A stretch of 64,000 nucleotides of DNA from Daejeonella sp. (GTDB lineage Bacteria; Bacteroidota; Bacteroidia; Sphingobacteriales; Sphingobacteriaceae), in assembly GCF_030695525.1 (NCBI RefSeq), contig NZ_JAUYSS010000012.1, forward strand, positions 62,001 to 126,000, written 5' to 3'. Position numbers and translations under genes: made by a program. Numbering within the stretch: position 1 is the first letter of the stretch; every line of letters begins with the position of its first letter. Positions 21,043-30,339 of this stretch are shown here, in pieces. The notes beneath the pieces are model-generated. The model saw nothing but the letters and a program-made list of their open reading frames with translations. It was not told the DNA's origin and made no database searches.

Positions 21043-22035
21043 TTATAAACCTAGTTTGGCAGATATTTCTAACATTCGTTCAATAGGTAATTGAGCCCTT
21101 TTAATTATATCCGCAGGAACAGTAACTTCTGGCATACCATTCTTTATGCATAGATATAGTTTCTCGAGAGTATTTCTCTTCATGTGCGGACAATCATTGC
21201 ATGCACATGAATTATCCGGTGGAGCCGGAATAAATACTTTATCCGGACTAGCTTTTTCCATTTGATGGATAATACCACTTTCAGTTGCCACAATAAATTC
21301 CTTCGCCGGATTATTTATGGTGTATTTCAATAATCCGGTAGTAGATCCAATGTAATCGGCCATTTTTAAGATAGCCTCTTCACATTCAGGATGCGCAATG
21401 AATTTAGCTTCCGGATGTCTGTTTTTTAATTTTAATATCCTTTGCTGTGAAAAAATTTCGTGAACCATGCAGGCCCCATTCCATAAAACCAAATCCCTAC
21501 CAGTCTTCTTTGCTACCCAGGCACCTAAATTTTTGTCCGGACCAAAAATTATTTTCTGATCTTTTGGTAAGCTTTCTACAATCTGTACTGCATTTGTTGA
21601 AGTACAAACAATATCACTCATTGCTTTTAACTCAGCAGTACAATTAACATAGGTTATTACCAAATGATCAGGGTATTTTTCCTTAAACTTTGCAAATAAT
21701 TTTGGCGGACAACTATCTGATAATGAACAACCTGCTTTTAAATCAGGCAATAATACTTTTTTTGAAGGAGATAAAATTTTTGCGGTTTCTGCCATAAAAT
21801 GAACCCCGGCAAATACAATTACATCAGCATCCGTTTTAGCTGCCTGTTGTGATAAACCCAGACTATCTCCAATAAAATCTGCAATATCCTGTATATCAGG
21901 CTCCTGATAATAATGTGCTAAAATGACCGCATTTTTTTCTTTTTTTAATCTATTTATTTCAGCAAAAAGATCAAGAGTCGGATCTATTGGCTCATCAATA
22001 AATCCTCTAATATTTAATTCTTCTAAGGTATTCAT
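21043..22035 (-). CDS. nadA: Quinolinate synthase NadA
   Basis: A 330-residue NadA of the three-domain type. The three cluster cysteines can be placed: [12 protein letters not shown] (~105), WNGACMVHE (~192) and CNDCPHM (~283). [20 protein letters not shown] is the conserved N-terminal substrate segment. The enzyme condenses iminoaspartate (from NadB) with dihydroxyacetone phosphate to quinolinate using a [4Fe-4S] cluster. It is the first gene of the minus-strand unit nadA-symporter-L,D-transpeptidase, and is divergent from nadB. Confidence 0.97.
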
Positions 22036-22444
22036 TTATCAACTATTCAATAATTATAATTTATATTATATATAATAATCTTATTGTTTATTATGGTGTT
22101 GGTACTGTTAATAATAAACATAATATTTTGTCTTTTTTATTGTTTTTAATTTATTATAAACAAATTATCAACAATATTTAAATTCTAAATCTTTGATTAT
22201 TAATACTTTCAATAATCCAAGTATTTTTTTTAATTCTTATTTGTGTAGTTTTTTATATTGATAAAAAGTGGAATACTCTGTATATTTTGCTTAAAACTTT
22301 TTCAAAAATAAGCTAAATTCGGCTTAACAGAAGTATTTATAAGTCAGTTTGTAATATTATCAACCAGTATTAATTCTTAATTAACATCTTTGATGATATT
22401 GTTAACATATTTATTCATAATCAATTTTATATAATTTTTCTTGC
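22036..22444. promoter_or_regulatory. AT-rich divergent nadA/nadB intergenic region with inverted repeat
   Basis: This 409-bp gene-free stretch is strongly AT-rich. It has a perfect 9-bp inverted repeat GTTTATTAT (22086-22094) / ATAATAAAC (22111-22119) with a 16-bp spacer, near the nadA side. The 8-mer TTATCAAC occurs three times in the same orientation (22036, 22165, 22357). Both divergent nad genes must have their promoters here, but I see no perfect TTTG-N19-TAnnTTTG. The repeat may be an operator for a NAD-responsive regulator; no such regulator gene is in the window. No small ORF in it is convincing. Confidence 0.5.
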
Positions 22445-24034
22445 ATGAAAAATGTTGATTTTTTAGTAATTGGATCCGGGATTGCAGGATTAAGTTTTGC
22501 TTTAAAAGCTGCCAAATATGGTAAGGTTCTGATAGTTACAAAGGCTAATGAGGATGAATCTAATACTAAATATGCACAAGGAGGGGTTGCTGTTGTTGTT
22601 GATAAAGTGGAAGATTCATTTGAAAAGCATATTGAAGACACATTAATTGCCGGCGACGGACTTTGTGATCAGAACATTGTTGAGATTGTTGTTAAAGAGG
22701 GACCAGCCCGAATTGAAGAGATTATTAAATACGGTACCCATTTTGATAAGACTAACAAAGGAATATTCGACCTGGCTAAGGAAGGTGGTCATTCCGAAAG
22801 CAGAGTACTTCATTATAAGGATATTACCGGTTTTGAAATTGAAAGAGCTTTACTTTCTCAAATACATAGTGATCCTAATATTGAAATTTTAACTCATTTT
22901 TTTGCCGTTGAATTAATAACTCAGCATCATATAGGGGCTTTTGTTGACAGGAAATCAGCAAATATTGAATGTTATGGGATATATGCCCTTGACACTGCAA
23001 CGAATAAAGTAGAAAAGTTTTTATCCAGGGTTACATTAATGGCATCTGGTGGTGCCGGGCATATTTATTCGACAACTACAAATCCTGTTATAGCCACTGG
23101 TGATGGAATTGCGATGGCTTATCGTGCAAAAGCAAAAGTAAGGAATATGGAATTTATTCAATTTCATCCAACCGCATTGTATAATCCAGGAGAGTATCCC
23201 TCATTTTTAATATCTGAAGCTGTTAGAGGTTTTGGTGGTGTGCTCAAAACCAGAGATGGGGAAGAGTTTATGCAGAATTATGATGAGCGTGGTTCTCTGG
23301 CTCCTCGTGATATAGTGGCAAGGGCCATTGACGCTGAAATGAAGAAATCAGGTGATGATTTTGTTTATTTGGATATCAGGCACCGTGATAAAGCTGATAT
23401 TCTTTCACATTTCCCCAATATTTACGCGAAATGTTTAAGCATTGGTTTGGACATGACACGTGACCTGATTCCTGTTACTCCCGCGGCTCACTATATGTGT
23501 GGTGGTATTCTGGTTGATGAAGATGGAAAATCCTCTATTCATCGACTATATGCTTGTGGGGAGTGCACTTCAACTGGTTTGCATGGAGCGAATAGACTGG
23601 CTTCTAATTCCTTGCTTGAGGCTCCTGTATTTGCTCACAGGATTTTTGAAGATGCTATTAAAGTCTTTAGTAAATATGAAATTCCTGATAATATACCTGA
23701 ATGGGATGAAACTGACACTAAACTTTCAAATGAGGACATTCTGGTAACTCATAATCTTCGTGAAACACAAAAAGTTATGAGTGATTATGTTGGTATTGTA
23801 AGATCAGATTTCAGACTGGAGAGAGCAATGCGACGTTTAGGCCTGCTGTATGAAGAAACGGAAAGCTTTTACAAGAAGACCACATTGTCTGTTAAATTAT
23901 GTGAGCTTCGAAATGTAATTCAAAATGCTTACATCGTTATAAAATCCGCCACATTACGTAAAGAGAGCAGGGGTCTTCATTATACAACTGATTACAAGCC
24001 TCATGCACTTGATCCGCACGATACAGTTTTTTAA
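22445..24034 (+). CDS. nadB: L-aspartate oxidase NadB
   Basis: A 529-residue FAD protein of the succinate dehydrogenase/fumarate reductase flavoprotein family. The N-terminal GSGIAGLSFALKAA is the FAD site; SESRVLHYKDITGFEIERAL, RNMEFIQFHPTAL, and LYACGECTSTGLHGANRLASNSLLEAPVFAHR are family motifs. Residues ~430-500 form the C-terminal helical domain. NadB oxidises L-aspartate to iminoaspartate for NadA. The gene has the visibly AT-rich, T-ending codons also seen in the following gene. A gamma carbonic anhydrase gene follows after 12 bp and is probably co-transcribed. Confidence 0.97.
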   Translation: MKNVDFLVIGSGIAGLSFALKAAKYGKVLIVTKANEDESNTKYAQGGVAVVVDKVEDSFEKHIEDTLIAGDGLCDQNIVEIVVKEGPARIEEIIKYGTHFDKTNKGIFDLAKEGGHSESRVLHYKDITGFEIERALLSQIHSDPNIEILTHFFAVELITQHHIGAFVDRKSANIECYGIYALDTATNKVEKFLSRVTLMASGGAGHIYSTTTNPVIATGDGIAMAYRAKAKVRNMEFIQFHPTALYNPGEYPSFLISEAVRGFGGVLKTRDGEEFMQNYDERGSLAPRDIVARAIDAEMKKSGDDFVYLDIRHRDKADILSHFPNIYAKCLSIGLDMTRDLIPVTPAAHYMCGGILVDEDGKSSIHRLYACGECTSTGLHGANRLASNSLLEAPVFAHRIFEDAIKVFSKYEIPDNIPEWDETDTKLSNEDILVTHNLRETQKVMSDYVGIVRSDFRLERAMRRLGLLYEETESFYKKTTLSVKLCELRNVIQNAYIVIKSATLRKESRGLHYTTDYKPHALDPHDTVF

Positions 24035-26314: not shown

Positions 26315-28177
26315 TTATCTGGCCATATGAACCATTAAAACTGATATATCTGATGGTGAAACCCCAGAAATTCTGGATGCTTGTCCCAAAGTCCTCGGTT
26401 TTATTTTCATCAATTTTTCCCTTGCCTCTTTTGATAATGATACAAGGTCACGATAATTGAATTCAGGGTTAATTGTATGATCTTCCATCCGTTTCATTTT
26501 ATCAACTATCTCGAGTTCCTTTTCAAAATAGCTTTCGTATTTCACTTTTATTTCTGCTTGTTCGACAGTCTCTCTATCGTACTTTTCTATTAAATCATTG
26601 AACGCCGGATCTGCTTTTTTAATATCTTGAAACCCAATCTGAGGCCTTGTTATAAGTTGGAACATTTTTACGTTTTGGGTTATTCCCGGTGTACCTTTTT
26701 CTTCAAGGATCGTATTTACGGCATCGGGTCCAATTGAAGTTGTTTTTAAATAGCTGACTAAATGATCGGCATTTTCTATTTTCTTATTTACCTTATTTAG
26801 TCTTTCATCAGATATTAAACCTAACTGATGTCCTATAGGGCTCAATCGGATATCTGCATTGTCTTGTCTTAATAATAATCTATGTTCTGCTCGTGATGTA
26901 AACATCCGATAGGGTTCTTCAGTCCCTTTTGTTACCAGATCATCTATTAAAACCCCAATATAGGATTCAGCCCGTTTTAAAATTAGTTCAGCTTTCTTGT
27001 TTATTTTGAGGTGTGCGTTGATTCCAGCCATAAAACCTTGGCATGCGGCTTCCTCATATCCCGTTGTACCATTGATTTGTCCCGCAAAATATAAATTACT
27101 GATTAGCTTTGTCTCAAGGCTAAGACCCAGCTGGGTTGGAGGGAAGAAATCATATTCTATGGCATAACCGGGTCTGAACATTTTTACTTTTTCGAACCCG
27201 GGTATTTTTGTTAGTGCCCTGTATTGAACGTCTTCTGGTAGTGATGTTGAAAATCCATTGACATAGATCTCTACAGTATTCCATCCTTCTGGTTCAACAA
27301 AAATCTGGTGCCTGTCACGTTCTGCAAAACGATTAATTTTGTCTTCTATTGATGGACAATAACGGGGTCCCAGTCCTTTAATTCGTCCTGTAAACATTGG
27401 AGATTTTTCAAAACCTTCCTTCAGAGTCTCATGTACCTCCGAATTTGTATAGGTTATCCAGCAGCATTTTTGTTTTGTAGGTAAAACTACGTTTGTGTAG
27501 GAGAACCTCCCCTTGCCTGGGTCACCCCATTGTTCTTCCATCCTGGAGTAATCCAGTGACCTTCCATCTACACGTGGTGGTGTTCCCGTTTTCATTCTAC
27601 CCGCTTCAAATCCTAGCTCCACCAATTGTTCGGTTATACCTGTTGAGGATTTTTCACCTGTTCTGCCCCCTCCAAATTTCTTTTCACCAACATGAATTAT
27701 TCCATTAAGGAAGGTGCCATTTGTTAATACCACCGCCTCTGCTCTAATTTTTAATCCTAATGAAGTTCTTACCCCACATACCTTGTTATTTTCTATTAAT
27801 AAGGAAGTTGCTGTATCCTGCCAGAAATCTACATTTGGCGTTCGTTCTAGTGCTAATCTCCACTCTTCAGCAAATCTTTTTCTATCATTCTGTGCTCTGG
27901 GGCTCCACATGGCAGGTCCTTTAGAACTGTTCAACATGCGGAATTGTAATGTTGTTTTATCTGTTATTATTCCGGAATACCCACCCATTGCATCTATTTC
28001 ACGAACAATTTGGCCTTTTGCCACACCACCCATTGCCGGATTACAGCTCATTTGGGCAATCGTTTCCATGTTCATGGTTATTAATAAAACTTTAGAACCC
28101 AGGTTAGCGGCCGCAGCTGCTGCCTCGCATCCGGCATGTCCGGCGCCTACCACTATTATATCGTATTTATCAAACAT
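26315..28177 (-). CDS. mnmG: tRNA uridine-5-carboxymethylaminomethyl synthesis enzyme MnmG (GidA)
   Basis: A 620-residue FAD protein matching Mnm[18 protein letters not shown] is the FAD motif at the N-terminus; [30 protein letters not shown], and [15 protein letters not shown] are the family signatures; the C-terminal helical domain includes [29 protein letters not shown]. With MnmE it modifies the wobble uridine of several tRNAs. In many bacteria the gene (gidA) lies near the replication origin, which fits the parS sites just upstream of its start. It stands alone on the minus strand. Confidence 0.98.
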
Positions 28178-28185
28178 TTTTATGA

Positions 28186-28201
28186 TGTTCCACGTGGAAC
28201 A
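28186..28201. other. parS centromere site 1 (ParB-binding palindrome)
   Basis: TGTTCCACGTGGAACA is a perfect 16-bp palindrome and the form of the parS site expected in Bacteroidota (consensus elsewhere TGTTTCACGTGAAACA). It lies 8 bp upstream of the mnmG start codon. ParB loads here as a CTP-dependent clamp, and parS sites cluster near the chromosome origin. Read as codons it gives the MFHVEQ start of spurious ORFs. Confidence 0.85.
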
Positions 28202-28225
28202 ATTGTTTTGTAAAAATAATCATTA

Positions 28226-28477
28226 CTATTTAATAATTGTTCCACGTGGAACATGCTTAAAAAGAGAGATGAGAGCTGCTGTTCCCCAAACGGCATTAAG
28301 AAAAACAAAAGGATAGAATTGTATCAGAAAGGAAGAATACCCACATAGGGCTGACCCTAATAAATTCATGGCGCTATACCACTTGCTTTCCGTCGGCATC
28401 AATTTCCTTAAATTGAGATAAAATGCAATGAGCAACAAGCTAACTCCTGCCGATGCCAATAGATCTGATATGCTCAT
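28226..28477 (-). CDS. Small membrane protein, CBU_0592-like
   Basis: An 83-residue protein with three predicted membrane helices (residues ~6-24, ~33-55 and ~57-72), with the motif ALCGYSSFLIQFYPFVFLNAVWGTAALISL typical of the CBU_0592 family. Function unknown. I chose the ATG at 28477 (MSISDLLAS), 8 bp after the ABC-F stop; an upstream start at 28507 would overlap that gene. The C-terminal tail KHVPRGTIIK is encoded by a parS site, so its sequence is dictated by centromere function, not protein function. Confidence 0.75.
   Translation of the reverse strand: MSISDLLASAGVSLLLIAFYLNLRKLMPTESKWYSAMNLLGSALCGYSSFLIQFYPFVFLNAVWGTAALISLFKHVPRGTIIK
28238..28253. other. parS centromere site 2
   Basis: A second identical TGTTCCACGTGGAACA, 52 bp from the first. 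Including flanks, site 1 followed by ATT and site 2 preceded by AAT are exact reverse complements (19 bp), so the sites face each other. This copy lies inside the last codons of the small membrane protein gene (28226-28477), where it encodes HVPRGT. Confidence 0.85.
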
Positions 28478-28485
28478 ATTAAATA

Positions 28486-30339
28486 TTATTCCGACAACTC
28501 TAGCCAACGAAAGGTTTGCTCATCGATTTTGTCTTTAAGATCCTTTATTTTGGTAGCCATGTCAATTAATTTATGGTGATCTGTTATTCCTGAATTTAAT
28601 TCTAATGTGAGGACTTCTATTTGTTCCTCATGTTTTTTAATACATAATTCAAGTTCAGAACGTTCTTTCTCTTCCTTAAAACTTAGTTTTCTTTTTGTCG
28701 AATCAGTACTCTTGGATATTATTGCAGTATTGGTTTCAGGCTTTGCCGGCTTTTTAGGCTCTTCTTGTTCCAGCCTGTAATCCGTATAATTACCTGAGTA
28801 GATATGTACATTCCCATCTCCTTCAAAAATAAAGAGCTGGTCGGTTAGACGATCAATTAGATAGCGGTCGTGTGAAACTAACATTAGAATTCCTGGGAAA
28901 TTAAGCAGAAAGTCTTCTAAAACATTTAGTGTATCAATATCCAGATCGTTAGTGGGCTCATCCAGTATAAGGTAATTAGGGTTCTTCATCAAAACCCGCA
29001 TAAGCTGAAGTCGTTTCTTTTCGCCCCCGCTTAATTTGCTGACCATTCCATACTGTTTCGCCGGTGGGAACAGAAAATGGGTTAAAACCTGGCTTGCAGT
29101 CAGGGTCTTTCCATCAGCCATGGTGATATACTCTGCCACATTTTTGACTACATCTATCACCCGCTCATCATCCTTAAACTCAAGCCCCCCCTGTCTGTAA
29201 TATCCATAAACGGTTGTTTCACCCACAATAACTTTACCACTATCCGGCTTTATGTCTCCTGTAATAATATTAAGAAGTGTAGATTTTCCTGTTCCATTCT
29301 TTCCGGCTACTCCAATTCTATCGCCTTTTTTGAATGTATAGCTGAAATCATTAATTATCGGTTTGCCGTTAAACGACTTAGCCACATGCTCCAGTTCCAA
29401 AATCTTATTTCCCTGTCTCGAAACGTTGACACTTAACTCAAGCGATGATTTTACATTCCTGCCTTTGGTTTTTTCTTCAAGATCATAAAAAGAGTCGATC
29501 CTGGATTTTGATTTAGTTGTTCTTGCCTTTGGCTGTCTACGCATCCATTCCAGTTCTTTTTTCAGCAGATTGGTGTTTTTGCTGAATGTAGCATCTTCTG
29601 CTGCATTTTGTTCTGCTTTCTTTTCCAGATAATAACTGTAATTCCCGTTAAAGTTTTGAATTTTACCCCGGTCGAGTTCGATAATTCGGGTTGAAACGTT
29701 ATCCAGAAAGTATCTGTCGTGTGTAACCAGCAAAATTGTTTTCTGTCCACTGCTCATATAGCTTTCGAGCCATTCAATCGTTTCAATATCCAGATGGTTA
29801 GTAGGTTCATCTAAAATATAAACATCAGGATCGTCGATGAGTAGCTTGGCAAGTGCCAGACGCTTTCTCTGTCCGCCCGAAAGAGTAACAATTTTCTGCT
29901 CGAGATGTTGTATTCCCATCCTTCCAAGGATTGTTTTTATCTCATATTCATATTCCCAGGCATTTGCATTACTTAAGTCATCCATTAGTCTGTTCAGGAG
30001 CTTTTCATCATGAACTTCCTGATTTACAGCCTCTTCGTACTTCCGTATCAGTTGCTGACGTTCATTTCCAATGGAGTAAATGAAGTCACTGATTGTTTCC
30101 TGATTGCTAAATTGAGGATCCTGTTCGAGGTAGCCCACCCTCAGATCCCGTTCGGTTACAACTTTGCCAAGACTTGGTTGTAAAATACCCGAAAGAATTC
30201 TGAGCAATGTTGATTTTCCGGTTCCGTTGATTCCAACCAATGCTACCCGGTCGCCCTTGTTAAGACCGAGATAGAGATCCTTAAATAACCAGTTATCGTT
30301 AAATGAATGCCCTAATTGTTCTGTAGATAAAATGCTCAC
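28486..30339 (-). CDS. ABC-F family ATPase (Uup/EttA-like)
   Basis: A 617-residue protein with two ABC cassettes and no membrane segment. Walker A motifs GINGTGKST (~37) and GKNGTGKST (~345), signatures LSGGQRKR (~155) and LSGGEKKR (~437), and DEPTNHLD / DEPTNDLD Walker B loops are all present. The linker WMRRQPKARTTKSKSRIDSF and a C-terminal coiled coil (~555-610) are typical of Uup. ABC-F proteins bind the ribosome and resolve translation problems; some confer antibiotic resistance. No drug-resistance arm is evident. The start overlaps the stop of the upstream gene by 4 bp. Confidence 0.95.
   Translation of the reverse strand: MSILSTEQLGHSFNDNWLFKDLYLGLNKGDRVALVGINGTGKSTLLRILSGILQPSLGKVVTERDLRVGYLEQDPQFSNQETISDFIYSIGNERQQLIRKYEEAVNQEVHDEKLLNRLMDDLSNANAWEYEYEIKTILGRMGIQHLEQKIVTLSGGQRKRLALAKLLIDDPDVYILDEPTNHLDIETIEWLESYMSSGQKTILLVTHDRYFLDNVSTRIIELDRGKIQNFNGNYSYYLEKKAEQNAAEDATFSKNTNLLKKELEWMRRQPKARTTKSKSRIDSFYDLEEKTKGRNVKSSLELSVNVSRQGNKILELEHVAKSFNGKPIINDFSYTFKKGDRIGVAGKNGTGKSTLLNIITGDIKPDSGKVIVGETTVYGYYRQGGLEFKDDERVIDVVKNVAEYITMADGKTLTASQVLTHFLFPPAKQYGMVSKLSGGEKKRLQLMRVLMKNPNYLILDEPTNDLDIDTLNVLEDFLLNFPGILMLVSHDRYLIDRLTDQLFIFEGDGNVHIYSGNYTDYRLEQEEPKKPAKPETNTAIISKSTDSTKRKLSFKEEKERSELELCIKKHEEQIEVLTLELNSGITDHHKLIDMATKIKDLKDKIDEQTFRWLELSE

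Follow-up and report, generated by a model that had tools for sequence, protein, structure and literature searches.

Just upstream of mnmG, the window (the whole stretch of 64,000 nucleotides analysed here, corresponding to positions 62001-126000 of contig C66) carries the same perfect 16-bp palindrome, TGTTCCACGTGGAACA, in two closely spaced copies. The pair might be the centromere-like parS site of the chromosome, a regulatory element of the adjacent gene, or a repeat that arose by chance or by transposition, and the question is which of these it is and what it can tell us about the position of the replication origin. An earlier note on this DNA had favoured parS, and had placed the window close to oriC on account of the presence of mnmG.

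Sequence, copy number and cognate ParB

Both palindromes are found where the earlier note had put them, and both are perfect (Table 1). The 16-mer of site 1 lies 8 bp upstream of the mnmG start codon, with the end of its core 9 nt from the ATG. The spacing of 52 bp that had been given for the two copies is correct from start to start, but the actual gap between them is 36 bp. Likewise, the three flanking bases that were said to be reverse-complementary are so on the inner side (ATT), but on the outer side the symmetry covers one base only (A), and the reverse-complement match of the two sites including flanks is 20 bp long. This flank symmetry looks like chance, as it is not conserved when the same-genus loci are aligned.

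Searches of the window with up to three mismatches returned only the twin sites. The same search of dinucleotide-shuffled sequence gave a mean of 0.21 copies, and two copies were reached in 1 of 100 shuffles. The half-site GTTCCAC is found seven times in the window, four of these within the twin palindromes, compared to a shuffle average of 4.64. At the level of the draft genome (4,207,311 bases in 73 contigs, 98.24% complete), a search for TGTTCCACGTGGAACA permitting one mismatch again gave the twin sites only, and 0 for a control pattern; the scattered copies round the genome for which the earlier note had suggested looking are therefore not seen. Relaxing the genome-wide search to the core GTTYCACGTGRAAC, again with one mismatch permitted, gave the same 2 places, a count that is uninformative by itself because the reversed control also gave 2.

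Table 1. Positions of the twin palindromes, their neighbouring genes and the candidate origin in the window.
Feature	Position	Strand	Evidence or remark
nadA (quinolinate synthase), left border of candidate oriC	21043..22035	-	Pfam NadA, E=7.9e-127; synteny kept
Candidate oriC, divergent nadA-nadB intergenic region, 409 bp	22036..22444		17% GC; four TTRTNHACA boxes
Presumed nadB (L-aspartate oxidase), right border of candidate oriC	22445..24034	+	Pfam FAD_binding_2, Succ_DH_flav_C; synteny kept
mnmG (gidA), tRNA-modifying enzyme	26315..28177	-	Pfam GIDA, E=5.6e-162; adjoins sites in 28/29 relatives' loci
Site 1, mnmG-proximal, TGTTCCACGTGGAACA	28186..28201		Perfect 16-bp palindrome; genome-wide copies, 2
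Site 2, distal, TGTTCCACGTGGAACA, in last codons of 93-aa ORF	28238..28253		Perfect palindrome
93-aa ORF, 3' end holds site 2	28226..28507	-	No Pfam match at E <= 0.001
ATPase, presumably of ABC-F type, other flank of twin sites	28486..30339	-	Two ABC_tran stretches; beside sites in 24/29 relatives' loci

The small 93-aa ORF that overlaps site 2 gave tblastn matches in 9 of 15 same-genus relatives' loci. We also see that its last codons are formed by the palindrome itself, and that several of the same-genus matches reach the same end.

The earlier note had matched the palindrome to the ParB-binding parS consensus, and this agrees with published sites: the same 16 bp appear, letter for letter, as parS of Pseudomonas putida (Table 1, PMC7022226) and as parS2/parS3 of Pseudomonas aeruginosa (PMC4368675). 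A single ParB match (E=4.2e-54, exceeding the cut-off of the family) was found in the genome, on contig C27, where in locus L003 the gene lies directly behind that of a ParA-type ATPase and encodes HTH_ParB, ParB_N and ParB_C domains. By sequence, the closest solved relatives of this protein are ParB, Spo0J and Noc chains. According to PMC7383237, residues R173 and G201 (Caulobacter numbering) separate ParB from its paralogue Noc, and the position of A184 is variable among ParBs. The aligned protein has R167 and G195 at the positions equivalent to R173 and G201, like ParB and unlike Noc, and R and G occupy both specificity positions in all 15 family ParBs examined, our own among them; the residue of our protein aligned with A184 is K, which is also found in Noc. 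Taking together the exact sequence match, the cognate ParA-ParB pair, the ParB residues and the conservation in family and phylum described below, the twin palindromes are very probably parS.

Conservation in the family and in other phyla

Conservation was assessed in a set of 201 genomes, comprising our own and 200 others from the same family. The 16-mer was matched with at most one mismatch in 147 of these, and the core GTTYCACGTGRAAC was found in 188; with rows counted by eye, two copies of the core are present in 156 genomes, one in 13, three or more in 19 and none in 13. The closeness of the two copies to each other was read only from those family genomes with listed copy places. In 28 of 29 relatives' loci (L021-L049) a site lies immediately 5' of mnmG; in the remaining one, L021, the match has one mismatch and no mnmG is present, and the core pair of that genome lies about 5 kb off. 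The core of site 1 does not vary among the 16 same-genus rows, our own included, and site 2 in relatives reads GTTCCACGTGGAAC, GTTCCACGTGAAAC, GTTTCACGTGGAAC or GTTTCACGTGAAAC. Among those of the 29 loci that have two sites within 260 bp upstream of mnmG, the spacing ranges from 24 to 110 bp, and it is 52-55 bp in 10 of the 16 same-genus rows. Helical phasing of the spacing was considered and dropped, as no regular phase was apparent by eye. One relative (L043, G092:C16) has three parS cores upstream of mnmG, set in exact 55-bp steps.

Among the 13 family genomes without the core, a match to mnmG is absent in six and found in seven. In five of these drafts (L302 and L305-L308) the contig breaks off inside mnmG, at codons 4, 133, 162, 399 and 540, and the 5' side of the gene is missing, which appears to be why they lack the core: the place of parS is not assembled with the gene. 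In G010 and G033 the 5' side of mnmG is complete and the core is absent, with three one-mismatch variants 5' of mnmG in each. We looked for joint loss of parS and ParB and saw none, ParB still being present in 12 of the 13 core-less family genomes; co-loss is not claimable from this set, as it holds no clear true absence of the core. In two loci of genus g11, from genomes of about 2 Mb (L303 and L304), the three variants of parS found 5' of mnmG each have one mismatch, which breaks the palindrome, and the R and G specificity residues are kept in three ParBs of this genus.

Named genomes were also scanned for pairs of cores separated by 11-41 bp, which gave at least 118 stretches; 30 of those listed are Bacteroidota by title. 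Using five proteins of our own genome as queries, which may miss distant homologues, mnmG was found in 26 of the 30 Bacteroidota stretches among the matches listed, with the nearest site at most 67 bp away or inside mnmG; in the four others, the sites lie 60-1578 bp from an end of the stretch. With the same queries, neither parA nor parB was found beside the sites in any of these 30 listed stretches. Five of the 26 (L155, L169, L186, L193 and L223; again among the matches listed), namely three Rikenellaceae, a Paludibacter and a Bacteroidia MAG, carry the pair at the 3' end of mnmG. For the 88 non-Bacteroidota stretches among the matches listed, the same queries found parA or parB in 47, mnmG in 26, dnaA in 14, and none of the five proteins in 21. 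One record deserves comment: L180, from Pedobacter sp. BS3 (NZ_VTRT01000001.1), a genus that NCBI taxonomy places within Sphingobacteriaceae, holds mnmG and the twin parS on a piece titled as an unlocalized plasmid. This title seems to be a mislabelling of a piece of chromosome.

Position of the origin and a candidate oriC

Raw GC skew within the window was too noisy for placing the origin. As our genome is in 73 contigs, its own skew test is limited to the 175-kb contig C66. The switch is best placed there at 100.5 kb (bootstrap 82-115 kb), 10 kb from parS at 90.2 kb, and when gene positions were shuffled 300 times, on a coarser grid, no shuffle fitted equally well. The sharpest result came from the relative G039, with a main contig of 3,468,875 bases. 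Its cumulative GC-skew minimum, taken over sixty 20-kb samples, falls in the sample 638001-658000, and its parS, at 648,774, lies inside that sample. A changepoint was also fitted to the skew at third codon positions, corrected for the strand of each gene, the terminus being set to 2.3 Mb. The best changepoint is at 658-659 kb, with 654-656 kb nearly equal, and the bootstrap range (2-kb grid, 500 to 850 kb) is 650-658 kb, leaving parS about 1 kb outside. For G007, a single contig of 4,322,684 bases, we used forty samples of 20 kb and a further 40 kb at parS. Its raw skew is weak, with almost no slope between about 0.86 and 1.6 Mb, and the best changepoint of 968-972 kb, close to parS at 962 kb, has a wide bootstrap range of 0.93-1.64 Mb.

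A skew minimum far from the locus was looked for in our own contig, in G039 and in G007, and was not found. The earlier placing of the window near oriC thus agrees with the strand-corrected skew and, judged by skew only, an origin-proximal position of the twin parS is supported.

A candidate for oriC itself was found in the window, 5.7 kb from parS, between nadA and the divergent gene that we take to be nadB. The block of parS, mnmG, two genes and nadA/nadB is syntenic in 10 of 10 relatives, with 5.4-6.5 kb between parS and the nadA-nadB region, and in G025 the two nad genes are inverted. A scan with the DnaA-box consensus TTATNCACA gave no cluster in our own contig and no box in our own nadA-nadB region; four of the 10 relatives (G039, G025, G066 and G076) do have TTATNCACA within the corresponding region. 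The aligned nadA-nadB regions contain recurrent TTATNNACA-like boxes. When TTRTNHACA was counted per 420 bp, our own region was the highest place in the 175-kb contig, with 4 boxes versus 3 at the next place. The expected number is 0.52 (P 0.002 by Markov sampling), with a P value that is optimistic because the pattern was picked after viewing the alignment. Over 11 genomes the region has 0-4 boxes, with P below 0.05 in five. The matching stretch of G007, whose right border was set differently there than in the alignment, has zero; the densest place in G025 is elsewhere, and in G042 another place ties with the nadA-nadB region. Compared to the skew fits, the matching region of G039 (about 654.7-655.2 kb) is inside the bootstrap range, our own (84.0-84.4 kb of C66) is inside the range and off the best point, and that of G007 (956 kb) is inside a wide range, with a fit no better than at parS. 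We refer to positions 22036-22444 as a candidate oriC only. Elsewhere on the same contig, outside the window, a 250-aa open frame contains a weak DnaA-family match (L005, C66:22471-22806; E=1.2e-5, below the cut-off), perhaps from a DnaA-like ATPase of a mobile element.

Alternative readings, meaning and comparison with known systems

Replication origins are often beside dnaA, so the sites could be genuine parS with the origin elsewhere, for example at dnaA, and in our own genome the matter could be tested on one contig only. In G039, however, dnaA (290 kb) and parB (1,034 kb) are 359 and 385 kb from parS, and an origin at either fits far worse (residuals 4125 and 4030) than the best point (3284). 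In G007, where dnaA is about 1.0 Mb from parS, the residual at dnaA is 1845, versus 1670 at parS and 1632 at the best point, and parB as origin also fits worse than parS. On our own contig C37, with dnaA at 58.5-59.9 kb, the cumulative skew climbs to 62.6 kb and then stays level, with no minimum near dnaA. We consider an origin away from parS highly improbable.

A role in mnmG expression, as an operator or as a 5'-leader RNA hairpin with a 20-bp stem upstream of the ATG, is another reading. The end of the proximal core is 7-12 nt from the ATG in 22 of 29 loci, that core does not vary in any of the same-genus rows, the pair is 5' of mnmG in all 28 family loci with mnmG, and the leader RNA folds better than 200 of 200 shuffles (z = -5.16). 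Yet two copies of any palindrome will pair with one another in this way, and the complementarity of their flanks is not conserved. The 5' placement also breaks down outside the family, in the Bacteroidota stretches among the matches listed that have the pair 3' of mnmG, and in other phyla the same core is often found beside parA-parB, even in listed stretches without mnmG. A regulatory element is thus very unlikely as the explanation of the palindromes, although they may have a secondary influence on mnmG expression within the family. For chance, or for part of a mobile repeat, our searches found no support; the position is kept over many genera and the genome has only two copies, such that the probability of this reading is close to nil. 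Overall, that the two palindromes are the parS sites of the chromosome, lying by its origin, is the best explanation of the data as a whole, and on the basis of these sequence comparisons we give it a probability of about 0.95.

ParB is known to act as a CTP-dependent clamp. On the parS reading, a dimer of the ParB encoded beside parA on C27 would bind to each palindrome, load as such a clamp and spread into the adjoining DNA, marking the origin region; ParA, probably together with SMC, could then pull sister origins apart after the start of replication. This binding, spreading and segregation at the twin sites we infer from other bacteria; what we observe directly is the sequence, uniqueness and conservation of the sites, where they lie with respect to the skew switch, and that the genome encodes a ParB of parS type. 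The most likely origin would be the AT-rich nadA-nadB intergenic region, some 6 kb from parS. Across the family, the sites would have stayed with mnmG and the origin, with parB and dnaA hundreds of kb off in the relatives where the distance was measured. We consider it an even bet that these elements form the core origin module of the family, one that has held together across many genera, arranged as twin parS, mnmG, about 6 kb of sequence and nadA/nadB, with the true oriC there and with dnaA and parA-parB moved away by hundreds of kb. If this is true, the sites for segregation and initiation stayed put while the genes for the proteins that act on them wandered.

Twin parS sites by mnmG are an ordinary and well-conserved arrangement, with the small twist that parA, parB and dnaA are elsewhere, and the finding leaves the picture of the nature and working of parS unchanged. 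This analysis adds the family-wide description and the oriC candidate. The twin sites are a useful origin landmark for this family, in which dnaA seems to be a misleading guide, the 409-bp candidate is a concrete object for testing, and a 4-Mb chromosome would here be served by just two parS sites. A literature search by title and abstract found no paper describing the twin-parS-mnmG locus; the survey of parS distribution by Livny in 2007 may already include such sites.

Among known systems, the NBS sites of Noc are also palindromes and are bound by a ParB paralogue, but Noc has Q and R at the specificity positions (PMC7383237) where our ParB has R and G. The chromosomal parS of P. putida and P. 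aeruginosa has the identical 16 bp, and in P. aeruginosa four parS sites are clustered near oriC, resembling the origin-proximal twin sites seen here, within a listed total of 9 or 10 sites, compared to the 2 found in our genome. The Pseudomonas ParABS system also differs from the Bacteroidota stretches among the matches listed, none of which has parA-parB beside the sites. A study of 12 gut strains (PMC10197239) worked with the consensus TGTTTCACGTGAAACA, allowing two mismatches, and the parts of it covered mention neither this family nor the mnmG/nadA-nadB neighbourhood. The study reports that the origin in gut bacteria is not systematically coincident with dnaA, with which the separation of origin and dnaA seen here agrees, and that in these bacteria, Bacteroides caecimuris included, a parS cluster and the skew together mark the origin, as they do here.
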